From Phycisphaerales bacterium (GTDB lineage Bacteria > Planctomycetota > Phycisphaerae > UBA1845 > PWPN01), in NCBI GenBank assembly GCA_012729595.1, contig JAAYCU010000008.1, positions 1-36,170 on the forward strand: a DNA stretch of 36,170 bases, given 5' to 3'. The notes under the pieces are model-generated. The model ran no database searches. It saw nothing but the letters and a program-made list of their open reading frames with translations, and was not told the origin of the DNA. Position 1 is the first letter of the stretch. Each line of letters starts with the position of its first letter. The translations under genes and the position numbers were made by a program. This document shows positions 2,621 through 36,010 of the stretch, in pieces.

Positions 2621-4486
2621 ATGAACCTGACCAGCCCAGTCACGCTTGTGCCGGATGTCCTCGAACGCAATCTTGCCGCCCTTCGCCGACACGATCCCGA
2701 CTTGGCCGAGCGCATTATCCTTCTGCGACAGGAAACCTTTGCCGCCGACCATCCGCCGGTCCCGATCGCGACTCGCGATGGTCGAATCAACTTTCGTTTT
2801 CATAGCCCGGACCAGGCCGATCGCTGGTTTGGACGCACTTCCATTCCATCGGTGCGCGCCGAGGCGGTATTGGCCAGATTCGATGCCGGGCAGGGCAACG
2901 TGTTTATTGCCGGGCTCGGCGAAGGTTCAGAAGTGCTGCTGCTCAGTCAGCGGTTGGGAATACATCGGGCCATTTTCGTTTGGGAAGAAGACCCGCGGAC
3001 GATTATGTTAGCTCTGCATCTGCATGACTACGCTCAGGCCCTGGCCCAGGAGCGAGTCGTTTTTATAACTGGCCCATTGACAGAGTTGAGCCACGCTCTG
3101 GCAACCTGGCTGAAACGGCATCCAGGGCACCTTTGCCCCAATCGTCTCATGCTTTGGCCCTGGCAGATTCCCTTGGACCTCGCCGACGTGCAAGCCGCTG
3201 TCGAATCCGCTCATGCCCATTGCGATCAGCAACGCCAGCAAGCCCTCCAGGAGTTCCAAGAGCGTATGGCGGCTTTGCCTGTCGTTGCATGGGATGATGC
3301 GTCGGCCCATATCGCCTTGCTTGCGAACCGGTCGGATCCGGAAACCTGGTTCATGGTGGATGCTTTGGCGAAAGGGGCTTTGGACTCAGGATGGTCATCG
3401 GTTACCGTTGATATTCGCGGGCCGGGTGACGTATATCCGCTGGCCCGTGCTGAGAAATTGACTGATTCGCGGACGCGATTGCCGGCTCTGGCCCTTCTGA
3501 TGGATATTCATCGCCATGAAGTCGGGGCCTTTCTGCCGGAAAAAATACCGACGGTTACCTGGCTCTCCTCTCGGGCACGGGGCAAGGATTTACATCCCGA
3601 GCGGCTGGCAATAACTGATACCGTAGCTGTTACCAGCCCCTATCTGAGAGACGACTTGCTCCAGAAGGGGGTCAGTGATCGGCGAATATTCGTCATTCCG
3701 CCGCCCTGCCTGGTAGCTCTTGAAAACTCCCAGGCCGATCACATTGAAGAACGACCTATCGATGTGGCCATCTTTGCCGATCTTGGACCAACTGATGCCG
3801 CCGTCTTCGGTTTCACCCTGACGACCCCGAGGAATATCTGGAACTCTGTAGTCGATATGCTTGGTACTCAGATCGAGGCATACAATGGCCAGCCGGGTAG
3901 AATAGAAGCCTTGTTGAGCAGGGCAGAGGATATATTGCGGGTTCGCATCGAGGATGAGCTATTACGGAAGTCGATGGTCGAATCCTTGGAACACTGGGTT
4001 GCCCCCAGACTACTCTGGAAGCATATCGTCCAAGGCCTTATAGAAGCGGATATTGCGATTCATATACATGGTGCGGGTTGGCCGAGGCAGACCGCTGCCC
4101 ATATACATCCACCGGCAACACTGGAACAACAGGTGGCGGTTTTGCGTCAATCAAAATTATTGGTGCATGCTGACCTGAACGGGGCGGTCTCTGCGACGGC
4201 GATGTTGGCCGCCGGCAATGGCGCAGTTCTTGTTGCCCGGTTACATCCAAGAGATGGAGATCCGGGTGGATTGGGAACCTTGCTTAAAAATAACGAAGAA
4301 ATGGTCGGTTTTTCGCATGTTCGCGATATGATACATACGATCCGTCGCCTGTTACGCAACGACGCCAAACGTGAGAAAATTGCCGTGAATGCGATACATC
4401 GCTGCCAGACCGAGCATTTGCCGGCAGACCGCCTGAAACAGGCTACAATTGCCGCAACTTCATTTTTTCGGTTTTTGAACCCCTGA
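2621..4486 (+). CDS. Putative glycosyltransferase, Maf/CgeB-like
   Basis: A 621-residue soluble protein. Residues about 90-150 contain a glycine motif (GLGEGSEV) followed by hydrophobic strand, acidic turn (WEEDP) and another strand ending in FITG. This resembles the N-terminal domain of the motility-associated factor (Maf, DUF115) glycosyltransferases. The C-terminal half (about 230-615) has alternating strands and helices ending in the late part of a GT-B fold: HIHGAGW, a LLVHADLNG segment, and a Gly/Ala-rich helix before a Leu/Arg-rich tail, as in CgeB-like or group 1 glycosyltransferases. Acceptor and sugar are unknown. No flagellar genes are nearby, so protein or surface glycan modification is only inferred. 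It starts 25 bases after the small membrane gene. Confidence 0.5.
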   Translation: MNLTSPVTLVPDVLERNLAALRRHDPDLAERIILLRQETFAADHPPVPIATRDGRINFRFHSPDQADRWFGRTSIPSVRAEAVLARFDAGQGNVFIAGLGEGSEVLLLSQRLGIHRAIFVWEEDPRTIMLALHLHDYAQALAQERVVFITGPLTELSHALATWLKRHPGHLCPNRLMLWPWQIPLDLADVQAAVESAHAHCDQQRQQALQEFQERMAALPVVAWDDASAHIALLANRSDPETWFMVDALAKGALDSGWSSVTVDIRGPGDVYPLARAEKLTDSRTRLPALALLMDIHRHEVGAFLPEKIPTVTWLSSRARGKDLHPERLAITDTVAVTSPYLRDDLLQKGVSDRRIFVIPPPCLVALENSQADHIEERPIDVAIFADLGPTDAAVFGFTLTTPRNIWNSVVDMLGTQIEAYNGQPGRIEALLSRAEDILRVRIEDELLRKSMVESLEHWVAPRLLWKHIVQGLIEADIAIHIHGAGWPRQTAAHIHPPATLEQQVAVLRQSKLLVHADLNGAVSATAMLAAGNGAVLVARLHPRDGDPGGLGTLLKNNEEMVGFSHVRDMIHTIRRLLRNDAKREKIAVNAIHRCQTEHLPADRLKQATIAATSFFRFLNP

Positions 4487-4645: not shown

Positions 4646-5857
4646 ATGAGAACCATCGCCGTCGCCAATCAGAAGGGCGGATGTGGCAAAACCACCGTTA
4701 GTATCAACCTTGCCGCCTGTTTGGCGCGCGAAGGGCGACGTACACTACTGGTGGACATGGACCCTCAGGGGCATTGCGCCTTGGGGCTTGCCGTTCCGGA
4801 AGATCAAATCGAGGTCAGCATTTACGATGTGCTCGTATATCGGAATAATGGTGACCGGGTGGATATCGGACGCAGTATCTGGCAGATTACCGCCAACTTC
4901 GATTTGGCCCCCTCGACGACCAAGCTGGCGGAATTCGAGCCGATGCAGCAGTCTTTATCGGACTGGGAAGAGCGGCTGGCTGACGCTTTGTCTACGGTGG
5001 CCGGAAAATACGATTTCGCCGTCATCGACTGTCCGCCGCACATCGGTACCTTGACCCATAATGCTCTCTATGCCGCCAGCGAGGTAATTATTCCGGTGGA
5101 TACCGGATATTTCTCCTTGCAGGGGCTGAGCAAGCAACTGGAAACCATCGAATCGCTGCGCTCCCGGCGGGACAATCCCTTGGATGTGCGGGTTCTGGCC
5201 AATCTTTATGACGTGCGCACCAAGCTTGGTCGAGAGATACTGAACGAGCTGAAACGCAAGTTTGGGCCGCTCATGAGCCATACCTTCATCAATTTCAACA
5301 CCAAGTTGCGTGAAGGGGCCAGTTTCGGGCAGCCGATCACCGAATACGATCCCGGCAGTATGGGCTTCCGCGATTTTGTCCGTCTAGCTCGCGAGCTGAT
5401 TTCCTCTGGCGGGCCGGACATGGTGCCTACTACCTTATTACGTCAGGCCGACGAACTGGCCGAGCAGGCCGAACGCCTGTTGGCCACTACCAAGCCCCTC
5501 TTCGCCAATAACAAGAACCTTGATGAGGGCGAGCCTCCACCGGCCACCCCAGAGGAAATCCAACAGAAAATAGACGAGATCTACGGTGTGCATGCCACTA
5601 ATGATGGTGTGCTGTTCGTGACCGATGCTCCAGGGGCCGGCAGCGTGCACTTGGCTGGCGATTTCAACAACTGGTCTCCGGAAGCGACCCCGATGATGCG
5701 GACTAATGAGAACGCCTTCAAGGCCTTGCTACCCCTGGCCCCGGGTCGGTATTGTTATCGGCTGGTGGTCGATGGGCAATGGCTCAACGATCCGCACAAT
5801 AACTACGTCGAGTCGAACCCCTTTGGCGAACTAAACTCCGTAGTAGAAGTTCATTAA
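4646..5857 (+). CDS. ParA-family ATPase fused to a glycogen-binding (CBM48) domain
   Basis: A 403-residue two-domain protein. Residues 1-260 form a ParA/MinD-type ATPase with a deviant Walker A (KGGCGKTT, 10-17, including the signature Lys10), Walker A' (DMDPQG, 38-42) and Walker B (VIDCPP, Asp128). Residues 262-315 form an Ala/Glu-rich helical linker. Residues about 316-403 match the AMPK-beta/CBM48 glycogen-binding fold: VHLAGDFNNWSP, then PGRYCYRLVVDGQW, LNDP and N-x-VVEVH, with both sugar-stacking tryptophans present. No ParB gene or parS-like site is adjacent. ParA proteins move or place cargo on the nucleoid. The fusion suggests glycogen or another alpha-glucan as cargo, which is inference. 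Its stop abuts the stop of the opposite-strand hydrolase. Confidence 0.9.
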   Translation: MRTIAVANQKGGCGKTTVSINLAACLAREGRRTLLVDMDPQGHCALGLAVPEDQIEVSIYDVLVYRNNGDRVDIGRSIWQITANFDLAPSTTKLAEFEPMQQSLSDWEERLADALSTVAGKYDFAVIDCPPHIGTLTHNALYAASEVIIPVDTGYFSLQGLSKQLETIESLRSRRDNPLDVRVLANLYDVRTKLGREILNELKRKFGPLMSHTFINFNTKLREGASFGQPITEYDPGSMGFRDFVRLARELISSGGPDMVPTTLLRQADELAEQAERLLATTKPLFANNKNLDEGEPPPATPEEIQQKIDEIYGVHATNDGVLFVTDAPGAGSVHLAGDFNNWSPEATPMMRTNENAFKALLPLAPGRYCYRLVVDGQWLNDPHNNYVESNPFGELNSVVEVH

Positions 5858-6900: not shown

Positions 6901-7398
6901 ATGCGCTGTCCATACTGTACAGAAGGCAATTCCGACAAGGTTATCGACTCACGGTTGAGTGAGGGTGGGTCAGTAATCCGTCGCCGCAGGGTTTGCCAGG
7001 CCTGCAAGAAACGCTTCACAACCAAGGAACGTGTGGAAAACGATGTTAAGTTGATGGTCATCAAAAACGGTGGCGGGCGGGTGCCCTACGATCGCAACAA
7101 AATCCTGGCCGGCATACAGCGGGCCTGTTATAAACGCCCGGTCAACGAGACGGCCATGCTCAGGCTGGTCGAGGAAGTGGAGGACGTGGTTTTCAAGGAG
7201 TACGATCGCGAGGTCAGCAGTAAACAGATCGGCTCCCTGGTCTGCGACCGACTTCGCGACCTGGATCAGATCGCATACGTCCGCTTCGCCAGCGTATACC
7301 GCTCATTCCGCGACCTTGGGGAGCTGATCGACGAGGCCAGGGATGTCATGGATCGCCAGAAAATCCGCAGTCCCGGACAACAGAAACTCTTCGATTAA
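6901..7398 (+). CDS. nrdR: Transcriptional repressor NrdR
   Basis: A 165-residue protein of the usual NrdR size. The N-terminal zinc ribbon has CPYC (Cys3/Cys6) and C-x2-C (Cys32/Cys35), with the family's VIDSR and GGSVIRRRR stretches between them and CKKRFTTKE after. Residues about 49-139 form the ATP-cone, beginning VIKNGGGRVPYDRNKI. In other bacteria NrdR senses ATP/dATP and represses ribonucleotide reductase genes. No nrd gene lies in this window, so the targets are elsewhere. A GGAAG ribosome site precedes the ATG. Identification is essentially certain. Confidence 0.97.
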   Translation: MRCPYCTEGNSDKVIDSRLSEGGSVIRRRRVCQACKKRFTTKERVENDVKLMVIKNGGGRVPYDRNKILAGIQRACYKRPVNETAMLRLVEEVEDVVFKEYDREVSSKQIGSLVCDRLRDLDQIAYVRFASVYRSFRDLGELIDEARDVMDRQKIRSPGQQKLFD

Positions 7399-33597: not shown

Positions 33598-33994
33598 CAA
33601 AACCTTTTTACCTCCAGTGCGTGCTTGCGAACCCGGCATAATACCGAATAACAACGCGCAAACAAGCTTCGGCAGGGTGGCATGGGTAGGCCCTGGTCAC
33701 GCCTCGGCGGGACCATGGTTTGCCCGTGCTTTTTCGGTAGAACCAATACGTAGTAAGATCTTCAGGCAAGTCGGAAAGTGCCGGTGCCATCATTTATCGG
33801 ATGCGCCCCTCTCGCCAAACCGCCAGGCTACCCCCCCCTTGCCCGACTGTATTTTTCTGTCGGTCTAGGCCATAATACGCCCCAGGGGAGAAGTTTGCTT
33901 GCCCATTTGTGCAGCGGTGTCGATGAATAGGCACGGCGAGCCGGTGTGGCTGATCACCGGGACCATCATTAATCCTCAAGGGAGTAATAAAAGC
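33598..33994. other. Divergent intergenic region before the debranching enzyme
   Basis: The 397 bases between the two divergent starts hold no supported gene. An in-frame extension of the debranching enzyme to 33899 (32 extra residues) is possible but lacks a ribosome site. A TAATAC hexamer at about 33872-33877 could be a -10 element for the plus-strand gene, but no well-spaced -35 accompanies it. Confidence 0.35.
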
Positions 33995-36010
33995 ATGGCC
34001 CAGGCATATCAAACTTTGAGCGATTGGGAAGTGATCCATCCGGCCGACGATTTCGATGCCCAAATCCAACGGGAATGGCTGCTGACTAATGGTCTGGGTG
34101 GTTATGCGTCGGGTACGGTGTTGGGAATTCCTGCTCGAAGATATCACGGTCTGCTGGTCGCCGCCGCCCGTCCGCCATTGGAACGCTGGTTGCTCCTGTC
34201 GGCCGTCCTCGAACGTATCGGCTCGGACGGTAGAGTATATGAACTACCAGGCTTTGAATTCGGCGGGAAGATTCACCCGGTTGGCTACCAGTATTTGACC
34301 GGCTTCGCGGTCCAGAATGACCCGCGGCATCCCGCGGTATGGTTCGAATACCAGATCGATGATTTGCGTCTGCTCAAGCAGGTGGTTTTACCTTATGGTC
34401 AGGACGAGGTTTCTATTAGATACCGGCTGACCGGGCCGGCCGGGCAACCGTTATCGCTGGATCTGGCCCCGTTCCTGGCTATGCGCGATTTTCATGCTCT
34501 CACCCATGCGTTTGCCCCCGGATACGCCGTCGAGCAGACCGCCGATTGGGTGGCCGTCGATGCTTTTGCCGATGGTCCGAGGATTTGGATGCAGGCTCGC
34601 TGGAGCAGCGAAGGTTCGCCGGTGGCTTTTGAGGGCCGACCGGATTGGTGGTATCGCATTACCTATCGCGAGGAAGCGGCTCGGGGCCAGGACCATCAGG
34701 AAGACCTCTATACTCCCGGCTGGTTCCAGGCTCAAGGTTCCGGATCAATAGAGGTCGAACTGCGGGCCGTGGCGGATTTTTCCGGCCGGGCCCATCCGCT
34801 TCCGGCTTCGACCGCCCCGGCCGCCGCCGCTGAACCGGAAATCGGCCCGTGCATCGCGGAGCAACAGTTACGCACGGCCGCCTCCGCCTTCGTAGTCCGC
34901 CGCCGCCGACCGGATAACGCCGATCTGACCACCATCCTGGCCGGCTACCCCTGGTTCGGCGACTGGGGGCGGGATACGTTTATCGCCTTACCCGGCCTGC
35001 TCTTGGAGACGGAGCGGTTCGCCGAGGCCCTTCAGGTATTAGAGGTATTCGCATCCGCCCAGCAGGACGGACTAATCCCCAACCGTTTCAGCGATTACGG
35101 TGATGGCCGGGATTACAACAGCGTGGACGCCAGCCTGTGGTTCATGCATGCGGCCGATGCCTATGTCCAGGCCAGCGGTGACGAGTACGCCTGGAAGGAA
35201 ATTCTCGCTCCGGCCTGCGCCCGGGTGGTGGACGCTTTCGTGGCCGGAACCCGGTTCAATATCCGCGTTGAGGACGACGGGCTGCTGACCTGCGGCGACG
35301 CGACTACCCAACTTACCTGGATGGACGCCAAGTGCGGAGATATCGTGTTCACTCCTCGGCACGGCAAACCGGTCGAGGTAAATGCTCTCTGGTATCATGA
35401 TCTGATGACTCTGGCCGAACGGGCGCGGCGTAATGGCTCGTCCCAGGCGATAGATTATCTCAAGCTGGCCGAAAACTGTCGCCAATCTTTCGTCGAAACC
35501 TTCTGGAACGATGATTATCAATGCCTCTACGATGTGGTACGCAGCGATTGGAAGGACATGGCCATTCGCCCTAACCAGATTTTCGCGGTCAGCCTGGCCC
35601 ATTCCCCGCTCAGCCAGGCTCGCCAACAGGCCGTCTTGCGTTGCGTGGAGCGTGAATTGTTGACTCCATACGGTCTGCGCTCGTTATCGCCCCACCATCC
35701 ATCCTATCGCGGCCGCTACGAGGGTGGCCCCTTCGATCGCGACAGCGTTTATCATCAGGGCACGGTCTGGGGTTGGCTGATCGGCCCGTTCGTTGAAGCT
35801 TATCTGCGTGTACACAAGTTTTCGAACCACGCAAAGAAACAAATGCGCAAGCAACTGGGGCCGCTGTTGGAGCATCTGCAAACCGCTGGCATCGGTTCGA
35901 TCAGTGAGATATTCGATGGTGATTCGCCGCATACCCCGCGTGGCTGTATTGCCCAGGCGTGGAGCGTGTCCGAACTGCTCCGTGCCTGGCACCTGACCGA
36001 ACTGGAATAA
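33995..36010 (+). CDS. Glycogen debranching enzyme (amylo-alpha-1,6-glucosidase, GH133-like)
   Basis: A 671-residue two-part enzyme. The N-terminal domain (about 20-270) opens REWLLTNGLGGYASGTVLG, RRYHGLLVAA, as in bacterial and archaeal GDE N-terminal domains. The C-terminal (alpha/alpha)6 catalytic domain (about 300-665) has GYPWFGDWGRDTFIALPGLLL, NRFSDYGDGRDYNSVDASLW, LTWMDAK, RHGKPVEVNALWYHDL, RPNQIFAVSL, YHQGTVWGWLIGPF and PRGCIAQAWSV. Both Asp/Glu-rich catalytic regions are intact. It should cut alpha-1,6 branch points of glycogen. The ATG at 33995 is backed by GGGAG ten bases upstream. No glgP, glgA or glgB is adjacent. It is functionally linked by substrate to the ParA-CBM48 fusion at 4646-5857. 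Confidence 0.93.
   Translation: MAQAYQTLSDWEVIHPADDFDAQIQREWLLTNGLGGYASGTVLGIPARRYHGLLVAAARPPLERWLLLSAVLERIGSDGRVYELPGFEFGGKIHPVGYQYLTGFAVQNDPRHPAVWFEYQIDDLRLLKQVVLPYGQDEVSIRYRLTGPAGQPLSLDLAPFLAMRDFHALTHAFAPGYAVEQTADWVAVDAFADGPRIWMQARWSSEGSPVAFEGRPDWWYRITYREEAARGQDHQEDLYTPGWFQAQGSGSIEVELRAVADFSGRAHPLPASTAPAAAAEPEIGPCIAEQQLRTAASAFVVRRRRPDNADLTTILAGYPWFGDWGRDTFIALPGLLLETERFAEALQVLEVFASAQQDGLIPNRFSDYGDGRDYNSVDASLWFMHAADAYVQASGDEYAWKEILAPACARVVDAFVAGTRFNIRVEDDGLLTCGDATTQLTWMDAKCGDIVFTPRHGKPVEVNALWYHDLMTLAERARRNGSSQAIDYLKLAENCRQSFVETFWNDDYQCLYDVVRSDWKDMAIRPNQIFAVSLAHSPLSQARQQAVLRCVERELLTPYGLRSLSPHHPSYRGRYEGGPFDRDSVYHQGTVWGWLIGPFVEAYLRVHKFSNHAKKQMRKQLGPLLEHLQTAGIGSISEIFDGDSPHTPRGCIAQAWSVSELLRAWHLTELE

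Follow-up and report, generated by a model that had tools for sequence, protein, structure and literature searches.

Does a ParA-type ATPase that carries a carbohydrate-binding tail place a glycan body within the cell, and is this body glycogen? The question is raised by a gene in a stretch of 36,170 nucleotides from a Phycisphaerales bacterium, the whole of which is called the window in the following.

The fusion gene and its domains

The gene is located at 4646..5857 on the plus strand and consists of a single open reading frame of 403 amino acids, which starts with ATG and is preceded by the sequence GGAAGG. Comparison of the protein with Pfam (hmmscan) revealed matches to AAA_31 at residues 1-179 (E 2.9e-48), to CBM_48 at residues 313-377 (E 1.5e-8), and to AMPK1_CBM at residues 330-403 (E 4.6e-12), all of which were above the curated cut-offs of the respective families. 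An earlier note, made from the sequence alone, had read the gene as an intact ParA ATPase joined to a C-terminal CBM48/AMPK-beta domain, and the reading frame, the Pfam matches and the presence of the Walker motifs agree with this reading. The two domains are connected by a linker of about residues 262-312 (5429..5581, plus strand), which contains a helix at 262-281, a low-confidence segment at 282-296, and a second helix at 302-312.

The AlphaFold2 model of the protein, based on 57 homologues, had a mean pLDDT of 87 and a pTM of 0.64. Both the ATPase domain and the C-terminal domain were modelled confidently, the latter in the region for which the earlier note had proposed a structure prediction. 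The linker was poorly defined at 282-296, and the length of this segment differs among homologues. The ParA-CBM48 fusion is a genuine, conserved gene; an assembly artefact as its origin could be ruled out, because full-length homologues in a single frame are present in more than 80 independent loci.

The ATPase domain

The Soj/ParA ATPase domain comprises residues 1-255 (4646..5410, plus strand) and belongs to the deviant Walker A type KGGxGKT[ST]. The Walker A (KGGCGKTT, residues 10-17), A' (DMDPQG, residues 37-42) and Walker B (VIDCPP, residues 126-131) motifs are all intact, and K10, K15, D37, D39 and D128 are invariant in the 122 homologue rows that cover these positions (122/122). Three further residues mark the subfamily, namely W79 (123/123), H43 (122/122) and C13 (117/123). 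A mechanistic meaning of His43, which is found at the position of the catalytic Asn, was considered and dropped, as the other ParA of the genome also has a His at this position.

The structural comparison (VIA-align), in which the listed matches were confined to ParA domains and which thus covers the ATPase fold, revealed a close similarity to Bacillus subtilis Soj (9a6n; Z 38.8, rmsd 1.4, 41% identity) and to Myxococcus xanthus ParA (8ray; Z 37.7). The structure with the best match, 9a6n, is a crosslinking model of Soj with NrdR that stems from a different organism, and an nrdR gene is located 1 kb from the fusion gene, at 6901-7398 of the window. It is near the fusion gene in only five loci, and its proximity is probably a coincidence.

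The non-specific DNA binding of M. xanthus ParA is abolished by the exchange R238E (PMC12462528). K220 of the fusion protein aligns with R238, and K or R is present at this position in 112 of 123 homologues. In the same M. xanthus protein, Y81, E82, D110 and E117 form the response site for Arg13 of ParB. The equivalent of Y81, Y60 of the fusion protein, is a tyrosine in only 35/123 homologues, the equivalents of D110 and E117 (the latter is M100) are variable, and only the position of E82 stays acidic. The fact that Y81, D110 and E117 are not kept argues against a standard ParB as partner. Moreover, no ParB domain was found among the nearby genes that were scanned, and no parS-like site with three or fewer mismatches is present in the window, in line with the earlier note. 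A separate, canonical Soj-type ParA is encoded elsewhere in the genome (C32:685-1638).

Distribution of the fusion gene

A scan of contigs yielded 80 loci with the fusion gene, including two in complete genomes (L041, L080), and nearly all were labelled Phycisphaerae or Planctomycetota. At a threshold of E 1e-60 or better, a close relative of the fusion protein was present in 34 of the 41 genomes sampled from Phycisphaerae, the class of the window, versus none of 351 genomes of other planctomycetes. Among these matches, three of the loci that were read in detail (L133, L135, L138) have the ATPase domain but not the CBM. The gene is, therefore, specific to the class, of old origin and vertically inherited. 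Within the window's order the fusion was found in 43 of 61 genomes, and one family, f4 (14 genomes), is entirely devoid of it. The class includes isolated members (PMC11266412). No description of the architecture or of the partner protein described below was found in the open-access literature.

Some loci were unusual. One contig is labelled Alphaproteobacteria (L014) and three are labelled Actinomycetes or Actinomycetota (L035, L073, L074), and all four have Phycisphaerae-type loci. Their synteny, including a shared PFK gene and other neighbours, is also Phycisphaerae-like, and the public MAG labels look doubtful. In G440 the ParA-CBM frame (L146:5572-9063) is open for 1163 amino acids, with about 700 residues preceding the ATPase domain, and may represent a longer fusion or merely an extended open frame. 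In another genome the fusion is split across two overlapping frames (G014:C20:18806-20015), probably due to a sequencing or assembly frameshift.

Neighbouring genes and a downstream partner

Upstream of the fusion gene, at 2621..4486 on the plus strand, lies a glycosyltransferase-like gene (PF13524). As only the window's family (7 loci) conserves its position beside the fusion gene, it probably does not belong to the core system. Its assignment as a flagellin Maf protein was rejected, as the match to Maf_flag10_N was non-significant (E 0.16). The recurrent neighbours aroB, pfkA, lpxK, maf and a repeat-bearing protein (c3) were likewise discarded as cargo genes, since they are lineage-specific housekeeping genes or of unknown function and no cargo is shared. 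Thus, no conserved cargo gene was found among the neighbours examined, and no microcompartment genes were found among those scanned.

Clustering of the neighbouring genes revealed a partner gene, of which the earlier note makes no mention. It is located directly downstream of the fusion gene on the same strand and often overlaps it or follows after a few bases. Among the 78 loci for which enough sequence was available, 34 had the gene, as did 24 of 30 additional loci of the class. The encoded proteins have lengths of 220-870 amino acids. At the N-terminus they share a short conserved helix with the sequence LSEIAHLFLS or a variant of it; they also have disordered linkers, and most of them a C-terminal domain. 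They had no match in Pfam or NCBIfam. A profile of 30 members matched FlhG (4rz2, E 9.3e-15) and FleN (5j1j, E 2.3e-10), and FlhG was also the best Foldseek match of the predicted structure (2.4e-9), with a low TM-score. The similarity comprises the C-terminal half of the MinD-like domain. In contrast to FlhG and FleN, the partner has no Walker A motif, which is missing in 59/59 distinct sequences, and it differs from them also by its disordered linker, its additional C-terminal domain and another N-terminal motif. By analogy, the partner is probably a pseudo-ATPase regulator or adaptor of the fusion protein. The ParA of M. xanthus is activated by an N-terminal helix of ParB with aliphatic and basic residues (PMC12462528), and from this likeness we infer that the N-terminal helix of the partner may contact the ATPase domain of the fusion protein.

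In the tree of the ATPase domain, partner-bearing loci are found on several deep branches, and a few clades are without partner. The closest relatives of the window's locus lack the partner gene, whereas their sister L010 has it, which indicates a loss in the window's lineage. A profile search of the window's own genome retrieved only an FlhG-like open reading frame elsewhere, with a match in the range of FlhG itself. The idea that the fusion protein acts without a ParB thus needs to be qualified: no ParB is encoded near the fusion gene, but a dedicated partner adjoins it in most lineages. Two groups of apparent partners were discarded. Downstream plus-strand open reading frames in six loci (L004, L006, L009, L021, L057, L079) were not retrieved by the partner profile and, on inspection by eye, are not homologues of the partner, and matches of the profile within the fusion protein itself (L059, L014) are due to low-complexity linkers.

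The sugar site of the CBM48 domain

The AMPK-beta-type CBM48 domain comprises residues 313-403 (5582..5854, plus strand) and aligns with the glycogen-binding domain of AMPK beta-1 (1z0n) with an E-value of 3e-12. The glycogen contacts of AMPK beta-1, W100, K126, W133 and N150, correspond to W343, R372, W379 and N397 of the fusion protein in this alignment. The sugar-stacking tryptophans noticed earlier, W343 and W379, are thus the equivalents of W100 and W133. In 120 CBM-bearing homologues W343 is present in 119, R372 in all 120, W379 in 117 and N397 in 102, while the median frequency of the top residue across the domain is 60%. As Y371, D382, N385 and G394 are equally fixed, part of this conservation could be structural. 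As judged from the alignment, the conservation of the four residues is the pattern expected of a carbohydrate site in use.

The site has not been kept in all lineages. The ATPase is present and the CBM absent in L133, L135 and L138; W379 is lost in L140, L145 and L146, and L140 is also without W343. According to the ATPase-domain tree, the CBM was lost at least three times. The partner gene was retained in all of these loci with the exception of L138. Glycan binding is, therefore, not required for the core role in every case; the ATPase and its partner can work without it in some lineages. Small proteins of about 100-180 amino acids that consist of an AMPK-type CBM48 alone are also common in these genomes, e.g., G000:C101:28335-28592.

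Possible linkage to glycogen metabolism

The earlier note had suggested glycogen granules as possible cargo and the co-occurrence with glycogen genes as a check. GlgA, GlgB, GT35, GDE and GH57 were surveyed in 61 relatives of the order, and GlgB and GT35 in 40 members of the class. A canonical GlgA above the cut-off was found in none of the 61 genomes. GlgB-type enzymes (E 1e-40 or better) were found in 21 of the 43 fusion carriers, but GlgB-type matches were present in all 14 genomes of the fusion-less family f4, 13 of them at the E 1e-40 level and one (G025) in fragments. GlgB is thus commoner without the fusion (Fisher test, p 0.0004), which is not a proof, because f4 represents a single clade. 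The expected co-occurrence did not emerge, and its outcome as support for glycogen is neutral to negative.

At least one of GlgB, GDE and GH57 is encoded in 40 of the 43 carriers in the order. The window's own genome, although devoid of GlgB, encodes a phosphorylase of family GT35, a GH57 enzyme and a GDE of the archaeal type, and may well handle an alpha-glucan. The remaining three carriers have none of GlgB, GDE and GH57, and two of them, G060 (94% complete) and G024 (80%), are also without GT35. Two further genomes that are 99% complete, G416 in 2 contigs and G428 in a single one, yielded neither a branching-enzyme-like GH13 nor a GT35 phosphorylase, but W343, R372 and W379 are kept in both. 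The absence of glycogen genes from carriers, which the earlier note had named as an argument against its own proposal, was therefore found in part, i.e., in G416, G428 and G060. Conversely, glucan genes are still found in genomes whose CBM has disappeared or degenerated, which happened several times: branching-enzyme-like genes are present in the CBM-degenerate G311, G424 and G440 and in the CBM-less G420.

The glycogen debranching enzyme that the earlier note had seen in the window is indeed encoded there, at 33899-36010 (gde_arch, E 9.6e-118), but 28 kb from the fusion gene. In five other genomes that have both genes on one contig (G006, G018, G022, G032, G059) they are 1.4-2.6 Mb apart, and, thus, a linkage of the two genes was rejected. 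Glycogen as specific ligand is possible in the window's genome, but it is not supported as a general role, and the genome comparisons do not single out glycogen granules as the cargo.

Comparison with known systems

The fusion protein shares the whole ATPase domain, the fold, the P-loop motifs and the basic residue at the R238 position with the Soj/ParA proteins of chromosomal ParABS systems (9a6n, 8ray, and Helicobacter pylori Soj, 6iub). It differs from them by the C-terminal CBM48, the invariant W79, a His at the position of the catalytic Asn64, the missing ParB and parS in the vicinity, and the non-conserved response site for ParB Arg13. McdA, which positions carboxysomes (6non, 6nop), likewise belongs to the ParA-type ATPases, and the gene next to it encodes a dedicated protein that is partly disordered and poorly conserved, as is the case for the fusion in most lineages. 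However, the identity is only 20%, the partner of the fusion is FlhG-like and not McdB-like, and microcompartment genes do not adjoin it. BcsQ (6yar) has the MinD/ParA fold and a role in polysaccharide machinery, but it has no CBM, the identity is about 20%, the fusion protein scored 83 bits and thus below the NCBIfam cut-off for BcsQ of 157.9, and no bcs genes are present. The CBM48 fold, as judged by sequence, and the residues W/R/W/N in place of W100/K126/W133/N150 link the tail to the glycogen-binding domain of AMPK beta (1z0n, 4yef). Unlike the latter it is attached to an ATPase and not to a kinase scaffold, the position of L146 is F or Y, and T148 is replaced by E. Judged by its sequence the fusion protein works like a positioning ATPase, but it is not a member of the ParABS or the Mcd systems. 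Polyhydroxyalkanoate granules, which the earlier note had listed among the cargoes of ParA-type proteins, do not belong there, as, according to a 2025 review (PMC13052382), the Pha proteins that position PHB granules are not homologous to ParA.

Possible function

We favor the explanation, with a probability of roughly 0.4, that the protein is a ParA-type positioning ATPase which is bound to the nucleoid, holds an alpha-glucan-like ligand with its own tail and was ancestrally regulated by the pseudo-FlhG partner. The Soj-like domain would bind ATP, dimerise and bind non-specifically to the nucleoid. The CBM48 tail would grip a ligand that resembles an alpha-glucan, be it a particle or a cargo decorated with glucan, and, by this, the ATPase would carry its own contact to the cargo or ligand that it may move. 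The ancestral downstream partner, which is FlhG/FleN-like but catalytically dead and has a disordered linker as well as a short, amphipathic helix at its N-terminus, would act as regulator or adaptor, comparable to ParB for ParA and McdB for McdA. The window's lineage, having lost the partner, would have to rely on its CBM only or on a partner encoded elsewhere. The losses of the CBM or of its tryptophans, the absence of detectable glycogen genes from G416, G428 and G060, the lack of conserved cargo neighbours, and the absence of the partner from the own genome count against this explanation.

The alternatives differ in what the CBM48 would be used for. It might read the level of an alpha-glucan or oligosaccharide and modulate the ATPase, which, together with the pseudo-FlhG, would control chromosome, division or motility functions instead of moving cargo. 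This fits to the regulatory AMPK-beta domain as closest relative of the CBM, to the long and variable linker, and to the resemblance of the partner to FlhG/FleN, regulators of flagellar number and gene expression. Nevertheless, glucan sensing is rather doubtful, because a conserved signalling or cell-cycle neighbour was not found, and because the ATPase has the DNA-contact position of positioning proteins and not a membrane-targeting helix. If the CBM48 were instead a protein-protein module that binds no glucan, with its tryptophans needed for folding or for the surface facing a partner, its retention in genomes that have no detectable glycogen genes would be explained. CBM48 domains of PTST-type plant proteins also act through protein partners, which offers a parallel. 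We regard this as unlikely, since the sugar-contact residues W, R, W and N are conserved beyond the rest of the domain, as carbohydrate binding predicts.

The proposal that the CBM48 binds stored glycogen, and that a ParA gradient spaces the granules so that both daughter cells inherit them, overlaps with the favored explanation. The conserved AMPK-like sugar site and the glucan genes of the window's genome and of 40 of the 43 carriers make an alpha-glucan store plausible. Still, glycogen as the cargo is quite unlikely in view of the missing canonical GlgA, the missing GlgB in the own genome, glucan genes that are at least as frequent in genomes devoid of the fusion, the unlinked GDE, and the intact site in three genomes without detectable glycogen genes. 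Lastly, an ordinary chromosome- or plasmid-partition ParA with an incidental extra domain is highly improbable: the ATPase is Soj-like, with 37-41% identity to chromosomal Soj/ParA structures, but the genome has a separate canonical ParA, ParB and parS are missing near the fusion, the positions of Y81 and E117 are not conserved, and the protein is below the NCBIfam cut-offs for partition proteins.

In known ParA-type systems the cargo is recognized via separate adaptor proteins, and a ParA that itself contains a module for carbohydrate binding would directly link the positioning machinery to a carbohydrate. It would offer a handle on the deliberate placement and inheritance of glucan stores in bacteria. 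The far-reaching version of the favored explanation, a class-wide, undescribed positioning system in which a ParA with its own glycan tether, governed by the pseudo-FlhG, places an alpha-glucan body on the nucleoid, is in our view rather unlikely; if true, the inheritance of carbohydrate stores would be an active process. The conserved pseudo-ATPase partner would be a concrete and testable regulator, which was invisible from one genome. Examples of this undescribed family are encoded at L017:11330-12829 and L010:4857-6086, and about 60 further loci also contain a member.
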